A stretch of 64,000 nucleotides of DNA, from positions 310,001 through 374,000 of the forward strand of contig JADBKR010000008.1 of assembly GCA_014896295.1 (NCBI GenBank), written 5' to 3'. The stretch comes from Limnochordaceae bacterium (GTDB lineage Bacteria > Bacillota > Limnochordia > Limnochordales > Geochordaceae). The notes beneath the pieces were generated by a model. It made no database searches. It was not told the origin of the DNA and saw nothing but the letters and a program-made list of their open reading frames with translations. Every line of letters begins with the position of its first letter. The first letter of the stretch is position 1. A program made the position numbers and the translations under genes. Positions 22,399 to 28,817 of this stretch are shown in pieces.

Positions 22399-25368
22399 GT
22401 GGCGGGATTGTCGAGGGCGTGGAGGCGGCACGGGTCAACGGCAGGAGCCGTGCTGCTGGCCTTGCTGCTGGGGGTCACGACGCCGGCACCGGCCCAGCAG
22501 CCGCCGGCGAGCCCGATCCCTGCCGAGGCAGGCGCACCCGTCGAAGCGGGCGCGGCCGCTCCGGCGCCGGAGGAGTTGCGCCTGCCGGGTCTCATCGGGC
22601 CTGTGCGGGTGGTGGAGGATACCCTGGGCATTCCCCACGTGGTGGCCCGGACGGAGCACGACGCTGCGTTTGCCATTGGCTACCTGCAGGCCCGGGATCG
22701 CCTGTTCGAGATGGACGTGAGCCGGCGGCGGGCCGAAGGGACACTTGCCGAGCTCCTGGGGAGCGCGGCCCTTTCCGAAGACGTCCAGATGCGCACCCTG
22801 GGCCTGTCCCGGGCGGCAGCCAGGTCGCTCGAGCGGCTCTCACCCGGCGCCCGGGGCGAACTCGAGGCGTTTGCGGCCGGGGTCAACGCATACATTGACG
22901 AAGCGGAACGGGCCGGCGCTCTGCCGGCGGAGTACCGCGCCCTCGAGCTCACGCGGGTGCGCCGCTGGCAGCCGGTCGATTCGGTATCGGTGCTCAAGCT
23001 CGTGGGCTTCGGGCTTTCCTTCAGCATGGACGCCCAGTACGCGACCATCCTGCAGGCGTACGTGCGGGCCATGGGGCCCGAGCGAGGGATCCAGGCCGTC
23101 TTCTACGACCTGTGGCCACTGGCCCCCGCTGAAAACGCATTCGTCGTGCCGGACGCGGTGGGCTACGCGCCGGCCTCCGGCTCGCCCCTGGCGGGCGCGA
23201 TCTCCCAGGACGTCCAGGGACGCGGCGTCGAGGAGATGCTGGCAGGCTGGCTCTCGCAGATGGCGGCCGTGACCGCCCCGTGGGCAGGCGCCGGCAGCAA
23301 CTGGTTTGTCATCGGGCCGCGCCTGTCCGCGAGCGGCTATCCCCTGCTGGCCAACGACCCGCACCTTCCGCTCACCCATCCTCCCGTCTGGTACCAGCAG
23401 CATCTGACCGTGCAGCCGGACGGCGCGGCCCGGCCGTCGCTCAACGTGTACGGGGTGGCCTTCCCGGGGGTGCCGTGGGTCATCCTGGGCCACAACGAAC
23501 GGATTGCGTGGGGCGCGACCACCAACCCCATCGACCAGACCGACATGTACCTCGAACGGCTCACCCAGCGGGACGGGCAATGGTACGCGCTGTACCGGGG
23601 CAACTGGGAGCCGGTGCGGGTGTTGCCCCAGAAGTTCCTGGTCAACGCGGTGGGCAACGGCACGCCCGACGACCTGCAGCCGGCCCCGGCCGGCCAGGTG
23701 CCGCAGGCGGTGCTGGAGGTACCCCGCCACGGCCCCATCGTCCGCATCAACCCCGAGCGGCAGGAGGCCCTGAGCGTGCAGTGGACGGGGCTGTACGCCA
23801 CGCATGACGGCGAGAACTTCTACCGGTGGAACCGGGCCTCCAATCTCCAGGAGTTTCGCGAGGGGCTGCGCTACTTCGACGCCGCCTCGCAGAACTGGGC
23901 GTACGCCGACGTGGAGGGCAACATCGCCTACTTTGCCGGGGCGGAGCTGCCCCTGCGGGAGGACCTGGAGGCCGGCGCGGTGGACGGCGGGCCATCGTTC
24001 GCGCCGTGGCTGTTGCGGGACGGCACGGGCTTGCGCCGTCATGACTGGATCGCCTGGCCGCCGGGCGAGGCGCTTCCGGGCGACCAGGGCATCCCCTTCC
24101 GGGTACTGCCCGAGTCGGAGATGCCGCACGTCGTCAATCCCGCCCAGGGCTTCATCGTTTCCGCCAACAACGACCCCGTAGGGGTGACGGCCGGCGGAGA
24201 CCCGCTGGCGTGGCGCAGAGCCTCCGGCGGCATCTATTACCTGGGGCCGGCGTTCAGCCCCGGTTTCCGCGCGGCGCGCATCACCGAGCGCATCCGGCAA
24301 CGGGCCCGGCAGGCGGGCAAGCTCACGGTGCAGGACGCCATGGCCATCCAGAGCGACGTCGTGGAGCTCGAGGCGAAGCGCTTGCTGCCTTTCTTGCTGC
24401 GAGCCTGGGAGCGGGCCGGCCTCGGGGAGAAAGCGGTGCCCCAGCTGGCAGCCCTTCGCTCCTCCCGGATGGCGGAGGCCATCGGTTACCTGCAGGATTG
24501 GGATGGCTCGACGCCCACGGGACTGCCGGAGGGGTGGGATGGCTCGCCCGGCGTCGCCGTTGCTTCCCATGGCCCGGGACAGGCGGTGCGGCCCGCCCAC
24601 GAGCCGTCGGTGCAGGAGGTCCGGGCCAGCGTGGCGGCCACGTTGTTCAACGTGTGGGTCGGGCAGCTCATCCGGGCCACCGTGGATGCGGCCGTGACGA
24701 GAGTCTCCCCGGACCTTCCCTTGCCCGACGGGACCATGGCGGTCAAGGCGATCCTCTACCAGCTGGAGCACTTCGACCGCACCCGGGGCAAGGGCGTTTC
24801 GGGCCTCCAGTTTTTCGACGTGCCCGACCTCGCCCTCGACCCGGCCGACGAGCGGGATCTGCTGCTCCTGAGCAGCCTGGACAGAGCGCTCGGGCTCCTG
24901 ACAGGGCCGGTCTTCGAGCCCGCCTTCGGCAAGGTGCGGGATCTGTCGGATCTGCGGTGGGGCAAACTGCACCGCCTGGTGCTGGCGCACCCTCTCGGCG
25001 GGACCTTCGGCATCCCGCCGGCGGGAGGCTTCGACGCCCCGGAGTACGCCGCCGGGCTTCCCGTGGACGGAGGATTCGAGGTGGTCGACGCGTCGGGCTT
25101 CGACCCCAGAGCCACCACGCCCCAGGCGTTCCGCTTCAGCGGCGGGCCGTCGATGCGCCTGGTCGTGGAGATGAGACCCGGGGCCGTCACCGCTTATAAC
25201 GTCATCCCCGGCGGGCAGGCGGCCGGTGCAGGAGCGGGCCCGCACTTCGCCGACCTGTTGCCCGCCTGGCTCTCCAACCAGGCGTACCGGATCCCGTTCA
25301 CGCAGCAGGAGGTGGAGGCGGCGGCAGAGCGAGCGTGGGTCATGTCGCCTGCTGGCGGACAGCCCTGA
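22399..25368 (+). CDS. Secreted penicillin-acylase-family N-terminal nucleophile hydrolase
   Basis: A 989-residue precursor of the penicillin G acylase/acyl-homoserine-lactone acylase family. A signal peptide (to about residue 35) and a Pro/Ala-rich segment precede the alpha chain, which starts RVVEDTLGIPHVVARTEHDAAFAIGYLQARDRLFEMD-like (split here as the family's HI/GYxxAQDRLFxM block). Autocleavage should occur before Ser near residue 300 in GAGSNWFVIG, which becomes the nucleophile. ANDPHLPLTHPPVWYQ, GVPWVILGHNERIAWG and the SANNDP segment are further family blocks. Members cleave amide-linked acyl chains (penicillins, AHLs, peptides); the substrate here is unknown. GTG 22399 is nominal; TTG 22408 has better spacing to GGGGGGTGG. 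A strong terminator follows the stop. Confidence 0.87.
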   Translation: MAGLSRAWRRHGSTAGAVLLALLLGVTTPAPAQQPPASPIPAEAGAPVEAGAAAPAPEELRLPGLIGPVRVVEDTLGIPHVVARTEHDAAFAIGYLQARDRLFEMDVSRRRAEGTLAELLGSAALSEDVQMRTLGLSRAAARSLERLSPGARGELEAFAAGVNAYIDEAERAGALPAEYRALELTRVRRWQPVDSVSVLKLVGFGLSFSMDAQYATILQAYVRAMGPERGIQAVFYDLWPLAPAENAFVVPDAVGYAPASGSPLAGAISQDVQGRGVEEMLAGWLSQMAAVTAPWAGAGSNWFVIGPRLSASGYPLLANDPHLPLTHPPVWYQQHLTVQPDGAARPSLNVYGVAFPGVPWVILGHNERIAWGATTNPIDQTDMYLERLTQRDGQWYALYRGNWEPVRVLPQKFLVNAVGNGTPDDLQPAPAGQVPQAVLEVPRHGPIVRINPERQEALSVQWTGLYATHDGENFYRWNRASNLQEFREGLRYFDAASQNWAYADVEGNIAYFAGAELPLREDLEAGAVDGGPSFAPWLLRDGTGLRRHDWIAWPPGEALPGDQGIPFRVLPESEMPHVVNPAQGFIVSANNDPVGVTAGGDPLAWRRASGGIYYLGPAFSPGFRAARITERIRQRARQAGKLTVQDAMAIQSDVVELEAKRLLPFLLRAWERAGLGEKAVPQLAALRSSRMAEAIGYLQDWDGSTPTGLPEGWDGSPGVAVASHGPGQAVRPAHEPSVQEVRASVAATLFNVWVGQLIRATVDAAVTRVSPDLPLPDGTMAVKAILYQLEHFDRTRGKGVSGLQFFDVPDLALDPADERDLLLLSSLDRALGLLTGPVFEPAFGKVRDLSDLRWGKLHRLVLAHPLGGTFGIPPAGGFDAPEYAAGLPVDGGFEVVDASGFDPRATTPQAFRFSGGPSMRLVVEMRPGAVTAYNVIPGGQAAGAGAGPHFADLLPAWLSNQAYRIPFTQQEVEAAAERAWVMSPAGGQP

Positions 25369-25373
25369 GACAA

Positions 25374-25407
25374 AAAGGGGCGGCGGGCCCAATGGCCCGC
25401 CGCTTTT
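25374..25407. terminator. Bidirectional rho-independent terminator
   Basis: A perfect 10-bp stem (GCGGCGGGCC at 25380-25389 with GGCCCGCCGC at 25394-25403) and CAAT loop is followed by TTTT on the plus strand. A run of five A on the other side gives a T run on the minus strand. It ends the acylase transcript and, in the other direction, that of the small membrane peptide at 25459-25599. Confidence 0.85.
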
Positions 25408-25458
25408 GCCTTGCGCACGGGGGGCTTGCCGTACGCGCAGCGCAAGAATGAAGGGATG

Positions 25459-25599
25459 CTAGAACGCTCCGATCAGTCCTAGCGCGCAGGCCGCACAAAG
25501 CCCCGCGGCCGCCAGCGCCATCCCCACGAACGCTACCGAAATCGCCGTCGCAATCGCGGCACAAATCGCACCGCAGAACCGGCGCTTGACCTCCGTCAT
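25459..25599 (-). CDS. 46-residue hydrophobic cysteine-containing membrane peptide, unknown function
   Basis: A small open frame that fills an otherwise empty gap. After a short charged start (MTEVKRRF) it is one or two hydrophobic helices rich in Ala, Ile, Gly and Val, with four cysteines (FCGAICAA and GLCAACALG) and no charge after residue 7. ATG 25599 is preceded by GATGAGG. The stop TAG is at 25459, and the bidirectional terminator lies 52 bp beyond. The positive-inside N-terminus predicts a cytoplasmic N-end. It resembles small membrane peptides or bacteriocin-like peptides in composition, but no immunity or export gene is adjacent. Coding status rests on composition, start signal and terminator only. 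Confidence 0.5.
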   Translation of the reverse strand: MTEVKRRFCGAICAAIATAISVAFVGMALAAAGLCAACALGLIGAF

Positions 25600-25747
25600 G
25601 CCTCATCGCCCCCCGCCGAGCCGAGTATACGGCCGGGCGCTTGCCAGACCGTTGCGCGGCGCTTGCAAAAAGCTTGCGAGGAGTACGGAAGCCGCGCCGG
25701 GAAAGGACATCGACAACGTTTCGCGCGGAGAGGGTCGGCGACCGGAT

Positions 25748-27014
25748 ATGGCACCGCGTGGAAAAGTCCTACTCATGGCCGTGGCGGCGCTCGCCGGAGC
25801 GATGGCGCAGGCCCTCGCTCCCGGAGTGCGGGCCGGCGCCCCGCCGGCTCCCGCGCCGGAGCAGGTCGTGCAGGCCGCCTGGCAGGCCGTCGCGGACCAT
25901 TACTTCGACTCCACGTACGGGGGCGTCGACTGGCAGCGAGCCCGGGCGACCTACCTACGCCGGGCCGCCGAGCCCGGCGCCGACGGATATGCCCTCGGCG
26001 TCGGAGATGGTCGCCCTGCTGAAGGATCCCGGCACTTACGTCCTGCGGCCGCAACAACGGGCGAAGCTCGACGAAGAGGAACGCCGGCTCCGGGTCGACG
26101 TGGTGGGGATCGGGGTGCTGCTCAGCGCCGGACCGGGCGGCACCCCTATGGTGCGCCAGGTCTTGCCCGGCGGGCCCGCCCAGCAGGCGGGCGTGCGCCA
26201 GGGGATGCTCGTGCTGGAAGTGGACGGGCAGGACGTGCGCAAGCTGTCCATCACCCAGGTGGCTGACCGGATCCGGGGCGCCGCGGGTACGACGGTCCGC
26301 CTGGTCGTCATGGCTCCCGGGGGCGCTCGCCAGGCCTTGACCCTGACCCGGCGAGCCGTCTCGAGCGCCCCTCAGCCGTCGGGCCGGCTCCTGCAGGGGG
26401 AAAACATCGGCTACATCTACCTGCCCCACTTCCACGAAGGGATGGAGACGGCGTTCCTGGCAGAACTGCGCAAGCTGATCCGGACCCGGGCGCTCATCCT
26501 CGACCTGCGCACCAGCTTTTCCGGGGGGTCGCTCGGGACCCTGTCCCACATCGCGGGGTTGCTGGCCGAAGGGCAGGCGCTGGGCATCCTGACGAGCCGG
26601 GAGGAGGTCTTCCCACTGCCGGCGGTCAAGGCCGAGAGCTCCTCCAACCCCCTCGTGCCCGCTCCCACGGCTATCGACGCGTACGCCAAGCCTGTGGCCG
26701 TCCTCATCGACGAGAGCACCACGTTCGGCATCCTGGCGTTCGCGCTTCAAGAGATGGGGCGGGCAGTGCTGGTGGGACGTCCCACCCAGCCCGCAACGGG
26801 CGATACCCAGCAGCGCTGGGAGCTTCCGGGCGGGGGCCTCATCCAGGTGACGTCGGGGCGCTTTTTCTCCTCCCGGGGCCGCCCGCTGGTAGGCCCGGTG
26901 GTGCCCGACGTCACGGTGCCCATGGACGATGAGTGGCTGCGTGCCTGGTACGACGGGTCAGACCTGGACGTCCGGCGGGCGATCCAGGCGTTGCGGCAGC
27001 GAGGCGCCATCTGA
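25748..27014 (+). CDS. Secreted S41/CtpA-like PDZ protein with degenerate catalytic site, frameshifted
   Basis: A carboxyl-terminal-processing-protease-like protein. The signal peptide and N-terminal helical part (PEQVVQAAWQAVADHYFDSTYGGVDWQRA) are in one frame. From about 25990 the PDZ domain (GIGVLLSAGPGGTPMVRQV, GGPAQQAGVRQGMLVLEVDG) and the S41 core are in another, so one indel is needed. In the core, LILDLRTSFSGGSLG and LAFALQEMGRAVLVGRPT align with active enzymes. The usual SASASE block with the nucleophile serine reads DESTTFG, and the lysine of TFGKG is replaced (RPTQPATGD). It is therefore probably an inactive binding protein or has unusual chemistry. The 3' end overlaps the convergent FtsH-like gene by 57 bp. 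Confidence 0.78.
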
Positions 27015-28817
27015 GCCGACCGCCGCAGGTATCTGTTGGGGCGGCGTCCCGGAGCGCCCGTCCGCTCCGTCGAGCTGCCCGTCGTCGAACAGCCGGGCCA
27101 GTTCGGCGATCTCGGGCCCGGTGATCTCGTGGCGATCGAGCAGCCGGCGGGCGATGGCGTGTACCAGGGGTGCGTTGGCGGCGAGCAGCTCCGAGACCTT
27201 GGCCTTCTCCCGCTCGAGCAGGCGGTTGATCCGGGCCTTCAGCTCGTCGTCGGGGGCGCCGGCGCCGAGCGCCCGGTACGAGTAAAGGGTGCCGTCCATC
27301 CCGTAGGTGCCGATGTAGGAGGCCGCCAGGCGCGTGGCCGTCTCGAGGTCCCCCGCAGCGCCCGAGAGGCGGGTGCCGAGGAACAGCTCCTCGGCGGCCC
27401 GCGCCGCCAGGCTCACCTGGATATTGGCGAGCAGCTCCTCCTGGGTCGTGGAGTAGCGTTCGACGACGGGGCGTGTCGCGGAGAACCCCAGCGCCTCGCC
27501 GTGGCGGATGATGGTGGTCTTCACGATGCGTTCGTGAGGCAACAGGCGCAGCTGGGCGACGGCGTGCCCTGCCTCGTGGTATGCCACCCGGCGGCGTTCC
27601 TCGGGCAACATGGAGCGCAGGGGCTGCTTGAGGCCCCACTCGTGCACTTCCCGGGCGTAGGTGATGTCGTCGTACGTGACCCGCCTGCGGCCGTCGAAGT
27701 GGGCCTTGACCACTGCCTCGTTGATGACGTGGCGGATCTTGGCCGGCGTGTAGCCCACCATGTCGGCCGCCAGCTCGTCGAGACGCTGCTCCAAGCCGGG
27801 GTCGTGGGCGACCTTGCCCAGGTAATACTGGATGACCTCCTTGCGCCCCTCGAAGTCGGGCGGCCCCACCACGATCTGCCGGTCGAAGCGCCCCGGCCGC
27901 AGCAGGGCAGGGTCCAGCACCTCCGGGGCGTTGGTCGCCGCCATGGTGAAGACGATGGGCTGGGGGCCCGGCGCCGGCCGGAACCCCAGGCGCCGCAGGA
28001 GCCGCGCCCACCACCGGGTCTCGAGGCGCGGCGGATCCATTTGGAGCAGCAGCTCGTTGAGCAGCCCCATGCCCCCGAATATGGGAAACGCCGCCCCGGC
28101 CCGCTGGTTGGTGCGGCTCACGCCGATGGCGTCGAACTCGTCGAGGAAGACGATGCAGGCGCCGTGCTCGAGGGCGAGCCGGCGCGCCTTTCGGTACATG
28201 TTCATGATCTTCAGGTTGGAGACCCCGAAGAACATGTTTTGCACGCTGGCAGCCGAGAGGTAGCCGAAGGGAACTCCCGCCTCCGAGGCGATGGCCTGGG
28301 CCAGGTAAGACTTACCCGTACCCGGGGGCCCGACCAGCAGCATCCCGCGGGAGACCTCGCCACCCATCTGTTTGAAGCCCGTCACGCCCTTCAAGAGCGT
28401 GACGACGCGCCGGGCCTGCTCGAGCACCTCCGGGTTGCCCCGGTAGTCGTCGAACGTGACGCCCGTCTCCCCGGGCTCGATCCAGTAAATCTGGGCCCGG
28501 CCCAGGAACCAGAAAACGGCCACGAACTGGATGATGGCCATGAAGATGAAGAGCAGGATGCTGAAGACCTGGCGGGCGACCGTGAGGGTCCACGCCAGCG
28601 TGGTGCCCGGGTCGAGGAAGTACCAGCGCGCGTAGAGCGCGGCGGCCACCAGGGCCCACAGGAGGGCCCGCCACCGGATCCACCATACCCGCCACCGGTT
28701 GGCCCCGGCCGCCGGTCTGGCCCGGGTGCGGCCGCGGACAGCTCTGGGCGCCTTTGCCGGGCCAGGCGCCGGTGCGGGAGGCGCTGATGGCGCCGGAAGA
28801 GCTGCCACCGGCCTCAC
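26958..28817 (-). CDS. FtsH-like membrane AAA+ zinc metalloprotease
   Basis: A 619-residue protein with two membrane helices (about 50-68 and 80-105), separated by only about a dozen residues instead of FtsH's periplasmic domain. The AAA+ module has Walker A GPPGTGKS, Walker B IVFLDEFDA, the pore-loop-like FFGVSNLK and the second region of homology ATNAPEVLDPALLRPGRFDRQ. The peptidase has the zinc motif HEAGH and a downstream acidic ligand in GAAGDLETAT. There is an insert before the second region of homology (RWWARLLRRLGFRPAP). It probably degrades membrane or regulatory proteins at the inner face and is likely a paralog of a standard FtsH elsewhere. GTG 28817 has AGAGGGGA five bases upstream. 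Confidence 0.87.
   Translation of the reverse strand: MRPVAALPAPSAPPAPAPGPAKAPRAVRGRTRARPAAGANRWRVWWIRWRALLWALVAAALYARWYFLDPGTTLAWTLTVARQVFSILLFIFMAIIQFVAVFWFLGRAQIYWIEPGETGVTFDDYRGNPEVLEQARRVVTLLKGVTGFKQMGGEVSRGMLLVGPPGTGKSYLAQAIASEAGVPFGYLSAASVQNMFFGVSNLKIMNMYRKARRLALEHGACIVFLDEFDAIGVSRTNQRAGAAFPIFGGMGLLNELLLQMDPPRLETRWWARLLRRLGFRPAPGPQPIVFTMAATNAPEVLDPALLRPGRFDRQIVVGPPDFEGRKEVIQYYLGKVAHDPGLEQRLDELAADMVGYTPAKIRHVINEAVVKAHFDGRRRVTYDDITYAREVHEWGLKQPLRSMLPEERRRVAYHEAGHAVAQLRLLPHERIVKTTIIRHGEALGFSATRPVVERYSTTQEELLANIQVSLAARAAEELFLGTRLSGAAGDLETATRLAASYIGTYGMDGTLYSYRALGAGAPDDELKARINRLLEREKAKVSELLAANAPLVHAIARRLLDRHEITGPEIAELARLFDDGQLDGADGRSGTPPQQIPAAVGSDGASLPQRLDRPPDVQV

Follow-up and report, generated by a model that had tools for sequence, protein, structure and literature searches.

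A conserved, uncalled membrane-peptide gene in the probable regulon of a heme-c kinase of a Limnochordaceae bacterium

The DNA analysed here, a 64,000-nucleotide stretch of a Limnochordaceae genome (the window), carries on its minus strand a 46-codon frame that sequence comparison marks, with near certainty, as a real gene of the kind that ordinary gene calling would miss. The best explanation as a whole, to which we assign a probability of roughly 50%, is an uncalled membrane-peptide gene under regulon control, whose mRNA limits its own translation through a 3' element and whose product modulates a partner in the membrane. The window's genome (G000) was compared with another genome of its species (G060) and two genomes of a sister genus (G001 and G002); these four genomes, in two genera, form the family sample. 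The order sample comprises 14 genomes, including G004 from another family. Judging by PMC11456536, the window may come from a relative of Carboxydochorda subterranea (Geochordaceae, Limnochordales), a guess on which none of the results rests. The features on which the argument rests are the following.

25634-25677, minus strand: four 11-bp direct repeats GCAAN7, a probable OmpR-type response-regulator binding array predicted by comparison of promoters
25624-25629, minus strand: -10 box TATACT (TATGCT in the sister genus), from promoter comparison
25609-25614, minus strand: G6 Shine-Dalgarno run, CGGGGGGCG, identical in four genomes by alignment
25459-25599, minus strand: 46-codon ORF, MTEVKRR followed by hydrophobic residues, a predicted helical hairpin (translation, orthologues, dN/dS, AlphaFold2)
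25407-25446, minus strand: conserved 3'UTR element, a hairpin with a CAAGCCCC loop (alignment, folding)
25380-25403, minus strand: intrinsic terminator stem followed by a T run (terminator prediction, comparison)
25748-27014, plus strand: divergent neighbour, an S41 peptidase with a PDZ domain (ORFs, Pfam)
22399-25368, plus strand: convergent neighbour outside the unit, a penicillin amidase family gene (ORFs, Pfam)

The first-pass annotation had described a hydrophobic peptide of 46 residues with four cysteines and a charged N-terminus, without giving the strand. This description is correct for the minus strand, where the frame reads MTEVKRRFCGAICAAIATAISVAFVGMALAAAGLCAACALGLIGAF; the plus-strand reading of the same interval is broken by an internal stop. 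The cysteines are C9, C13, C35 and C38, and charge is confined to the N-terminal MTEVKRR, all residues after position 7 being uncharged. Short frames are abundant in the window, and among its 108 ORFs of 35-60 residues this one ranks first in hydropathy (GRAVY 1.58 vs 0.46 for the second). Single-sequence AlphaFold2 gives a helical hairpin (H4-23/H29-45) at a mean pLDDT of 70, a weak prediction, which would place C13 at about the same depth as C35/C38. Predicted structure and hydropathy thus describe a small membrane peptide, a trait common to type I toxins. Searches of Pfam and NCBIfam returned no family at cut-off, with neither MgrB homology nor a Pfam toxin family, and a search of PDB chains gave no match.

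Conservation and an open frame in relatives, on which the first-pass annotation had made the gene depend, were both found. Among 60 relatives (own genome included), two sister-genus genomes carry orthologues at 70% and 63% identity, and the remainder match only at E 0.035 or worse. A profile search of all 14 order genomes, which brought in G060 as a further carrier, detected the peptide in four at E ≤ 4e-22, the other ten lying at E ≥ 0.002. The weaker matches (E 0.002-1) were judged to be noise; the best of them, in G011, lies inside a long frame that, read by eye, resembles an ABC transporter. In a 398-genome phylum sample searched at 1e-4, only G000, G060 and G001 carried the peptide, the carrier G002 presumably not having been drawn. 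No relative of the peptide was found on plasmids or viral contigs, or in a genome-contig search by protein and by 3' element, from which near records may be left out. The gene is single copy in its own genome.

Purifying selection on the amino acids, with start and stop kept, is the signature of a protein-coding frame, and it is present here. The start position, the stop and all four cysteines are kept in each of the four family genomes, and no orthologue has an internal stop. Between genera, the synonymous/non-synonymous comparison that had been suggested gives dN/dS values of 0.12-0.25; the window and G060 frames differ at only three positions, where a dN/dS of 0.79 is uninformative. Differences are in excess at third positions, and in each of the three pairs tested the observed substitutions were more conservative than all 2000 randomised sets. 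A single inserted nucleotide directly precedes the start in G060, where a GTG start nevertheless retains the frame. The ORF might be suspected of being spurious, within a control region or non-coding RNA that is itself conserved, since the 3' element is conserved at the DNA level and high G+C makes long frames common. However, as far as sequence can tell, this reading is already contradicted by the third-position excess, the amino-acid conservation and the frame-keeping GTG, and we find it hardly credible.

The layout on the minus strand is common to all four family genomes: four GCAAN7 units of exact 11-bp period, TATRCT, the CGGGGGGCG leader, the ORF, a 39-nt element and a terminator. The start signal and terminator proposed at first pass correspond to the G6 run, whose last G is separated from the ATG by 9 nt, and to the stem with its T run, which in G001 is only TTT. 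The sequence of the terminator stem has been replaced between genera but is fully paired in each, and this lends good support to the assigned direction of transcription. The putative transcript is about 250 nt long with its own promoter and terminator. As judged from this comparison, the peptide gene is its own transcription unit.

The divergent S41 gene and the peptide gene may share an intergenic control region. In the window the S41 gene changes frame near 25985, whereas in G060 it is a single frame of 421 residues; the break is a sequence error or a recent frameshift. Beside it, at 26958-28817 on the minus strand, lies an AAA+ protein with an HEAGH motif, which we take to be FtsH-like. The order acylase, peptide, S41, FtsH-like is retained in G001 and G002. 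Membrane proteases adjoining a small membrane peptide may merit attention. A functional link to penicillin acylase, beside whose genes the first-pass annotation had proposed a search in relatives, is not supported: the order is kept, but nothing ties the acylase to the regulon described below. The only GCAA array in the window is that of the peptide and the two genes converge, and the acylase was therefore dropped as a partner. It looks like an incidental neighbour.

The exact pattern TGCAAN7GCAAN7GCAA has ten partly overlapping matches in the four genomes, against one for a reversed-pattern control. All of them lie at the peptide promoters, at regulator/Fe-S promoters or at the promoter of a CbiM-hydrogenase locus in G002. 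A weight matrix trained on the peptide promoters alone scores 18.9-35.5 at the other promoters, the background maximum being 12.5 in 41 chunks of 3 kb. The arrays precede genes for Tat-signal 4Fe-4S proteins followed by NrfD, at two loci each in G000 and G060 and at one in G002. Altogether, Tat-Fe-S/NrfD operons with a matching array occur in five genomes, one of which (G004) belongs to another family. In four of the five (G000, G060, G002 and G004) such an operon stands directly behind genes for a heme-c (Tll0287-like) histidine kinase and an OmpR-type regulator. A domain scan of the G060 proteins identified Tll0287-like heme-c, HAMP, HisKA and HATPase domains in the kinase, and Response_reg and Trans_reg_C (receiver plus winged helix) in the regulator, the composition of the OmpR type. 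G004 has kinase, regulator, array (25.1), Tat-Fe-S and NrfD in the same arrangement. Across the order, 15 NrfD loci were found in six of the 14 genomes; seven have the array (18.9-32.9) and the other eight score 10.2 or less. Orthologues of the kinase occur in every family genome (75-100%) and in G004 (52%), and none at 1e-60 was found in the other nine of the 14.

Ten of 12 promoters have TANNNT at an exact distance of 15 nt from the last GCAA, measured start to start, the G002 peptide array being counted with four units, which gives the hexamer TATGCT. The exceptions are the CbiM promoter of G002 (CACACT) and the Fe-S/NrfD promoter of G001 (GTGCAG). A common tandem-repeat array at a fixed distance from the -10 box is what an OmpR-type regulon would display. 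Promoters of the PhoB/OmpR family carry 11-bp direct repeats, and the arrays described here resemble them in their tandem 11-bp units at a fixed distance from the -10, with no -35 box, and in having a regulator of the same domain family encoded beside the sister arrays. They differ in the repeat core, here GCAAG, and in their four to six units. Adjacency and shared architecture make binding of the regulator to the GCAA array a strong inference. Because the array stands at Tat-Fe-S/NrfD operons beside the kinase/regulator pair, the peptide gene is very probably a member of the heme-kinase regulon. The idea, raised at first pass, of a regulator of a membrane complex fits this place in an apparent Tat-Fe-S/NrfD regulon.

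The composition of the regulon varies among genomes. In G001 the kinase/regulator pair has no Fe-S/NrfD genes behind it; the Fe-S/NrfD locus lies elsewhere, and its array is weaker (18.9) and lacks TANNNT at 15 nt. This second array rules out the peptide promoter as the sole array of that genome. The Tat-Fe-S gene before NrfD in G001 (L107, about 893-1279) keeps its Tat signal and C-terminus and has lost the 4Fe-4S core in frame. In G002 (L052, 1726-5657) the genes for CbiM and [NiFe] hydrogenase subunits stand behind an array of five GCAA units, and another contig with a hydrogenase fragment (L083) scores an ambiguous 15.0. The matrix scan found no array at the hydrogenase loci of G000 and G060, and the hydrogenase was rejected as a general member of the regulon. 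The profile search detected no peptide in G004, although this genome has both the pair and the array; the most fitting reading is therefore that the regulatory unit is older and that the peptide joined it at the level of the family. In G060, NrfD is followed by another regulator-like gene (L049, 9656-10570), with a degenerate receiver and a winged helix, only the C-terminal part matching Response_reg, below cut-off. A fuller gene of this kind follows NrfD in G004 (L081, 4696-5430).

The 3' element is identical between genera at 37 of 39 positions, whereas the ORF differs at 31-39% of positions. It is single-copy in G000, G001 and G002 and is also present in G060; at up to three mismatches it is absent from the other 57 of the 60 relatives, a set that does not include G060. 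A conserved RNA element separate from the ORF, a trait of dual-function RNAs, is thus present. Past the TAG stop the peptide frame runs on through the element, where both changes between genera would be silent, probably by chance. Stop-codon read-through into the element was rejected, the other third positions all being fixed and the frame beyond not conserved. We read the constraint on the element as acting at the RNA or DNA level.

Within the element, the C6 at 25419-25424 is the predicted pairing partner of the G6 Shine-Dalgarno. With the transcription start assumed, the minimum-energy fold of the whole putative transcript pairs G6 with C6 in all four genomes, and the pair probability of G6 with the element is 0.94 in the window, 0.74 in G060, 0.99 in G002 and 0.97 in G001. 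When only the element was shuffled, the observed pairing was reached in 2, 28, 1 and 0 of 100 shuffles, respectively; it clearly exceeds the shuffled level in three genomes and does not surpass it in G060. With the element removed, the Shine-Dalgarno is still 0.66-0.86 paired, so the element adds to structure already present. Both sides of the G6:C6 pairing are invariant, and covariation behind it is therefore absent. In four stretches of G000, only four of the 81 starts predicted there have a G6 run. Taken together, we give an even chance that the 3' element acts on the translation of its own mRNA.

We propose that the phosphorylated regulator would bind the GCAA repeats and substitute for -35 recognition, and that a signal at the heme sensor would jointly induce the peptide gene and the Fe-S/NrfD operon. 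A 2026 preprint (PMC12889525) ascribes to signalling-linked Tll0287-like domains the properties of NO, not O2, sensors, so that NO or redox state is the likely input. The 3' element would then fold back and cover the G6 Shine-Dalgarno, limiting output, so that translation may be restricted to nascent or 3'-processed mRNA. The weakest step is the last, in which the peptide would insert as a Cys-bearing helical hairpin and modulate the kinase, by feedback of the MgrB type, or the NrfD complex, with the cysteines possibly forming a redox-, NO- or metal-sensitive site. This modulation is tentative, and we rate it somewhat below even odds; kinase feedback appears to be the single likeliest role, followed by action on the NrfD complex. 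MgrB, as described in PMC8404706, has 47 residues, lies in the membrane, belongs to the PhoQ/PhoP regulon and inhibits PhoQ, and two of its N-terminal lysines matter. On that description the peptide is similar in size, in its membrane nature and in being probably controlled, as a regulon member, by a two-component system whose kinase sits in the membrane. It differs in its predicted hairpin, as opposed to one transmembrane segment in MgrB, its four cysteines and the lack of a family match; the kinase here has a heme-c sensor, and feedback by the peptide is putative.

Alternatively, the peptide could be a subunit and not a regulator: a small accessory part of the Fe-S/NrfD membrane complex or of another respiratory enzyme, as CydX is of cytochrome bd. 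The promoter architecture shared with Fe-S/NrfD operons and the predicted Cys-bearing membrane hairpin would suit such a subunit. However, the peptide is encoded far from the complex, is absent from the complex-bearing G004 and is still under selection in G001, whose Fe-S subunit lost its cluster-binding core, and we consider this reading quite unlikely. The first-pass annotation had also suggested a toxin. A type I toxin-like system would comprise a membrane-active peptide, an mRNA kept silent by 5'-3' closure until 3' processing, and an unseen antisense antitoxin. The short hydrophobic peptide with its charged N-terminus is compatible with this idea, as is the Shine-Dalgarno sequestration by the 3'UTR predicted in all four genomes; the mRNAs of hok and aapA undergo 5'-3' closure, and here too a 3' element is predicted to close the translation start. 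No antisense antitoxin RNA, duplication or mobile context was found: unlike hok and aapA, the gene is single-copy and vertically kept in a gene order conserved in two genera, with a promoter of the kind found at respiratory genes. A sigma-70 scan found no antisense promoter-like site; it found no consensus promoter on either strand, and thus also missed the conserved sense promoter. Rfam gave no match. We regard a toxin as very unlikely.

Besides encoding the peptide, the transcript may serve in trans as a small RNA, its C-rich hairpin loop (GGCAAGCCCC) base-pairing with ribosome-binding sites rich in G and tuning the Fe-S/NrfD mRNA of the regulon. An element better conserved than the ORF and single-copy, on a transcript of this length with its own promoter and terminator, is consistent with such a dual function. 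In addition, the Fe-S gene of G000, G060 and G002 has its Shine-Dalgarno and TTG start within ACGGGGCTTGCC, part of which, GGGGCTTGCC, is complementary over 10 nt to the loop region of the element. However, the Fe-S start is not special by duplex energy, with 12 of 81 gene starts binding equally strongly, and the same 12-mer occurs three to six times per genome, mostly inside genes. Moreover, G001 retains the element although its Fe-S gene has no 4Fe-4S core and the locus no 12-mer, and there is no covariation. According to PMC5419742, RoxS/RsaE is NO-induced through the ResDE two-component system and uses C-rich regions; the present RNA differs in encoding a conserved peptide, and its trans targets are unsupported by the energy control. 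VcdRP, as PMC8672173 presents it, is a short RNA with a small ORF and a base-pairing segment in which four cytosines are named; there VcdP acts on citrate synthase, and the regulator and organism are unrelated. We consider the dual-function RNA unlikely. A fuller version, in which the heme-c system, probably responsive to NO or redox state, drives one RNA with two outputs, a Cys-bearing hairpin peptide in the membrane with feedback on the sensor or on its Fe-S/NrfD partner and a C-rich hairpin that silences the start of its own RNA in cis and represses the Fe-S/NrfD mRNA in trans, is a long shot; if true, it would be a self-limiting dual-function RNA in a deep-branching lineage of the Bacillota.

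A literature search found no description of the peptide or of the GCAA operator, which is not proof of absence in print. The locus is a compact example of an mRNA for a small protein in which the start of translation seems to be governed by the mRNA's own 3' end. The operator, 11-bp GCAA repeats 15 nt from the -10 box, makes the regulon readable in related genomes. With the peptide gene very probably among its members, a conserved and so far uncalled small membrane protein is added to a heme-c kinase system with little-known outputs.
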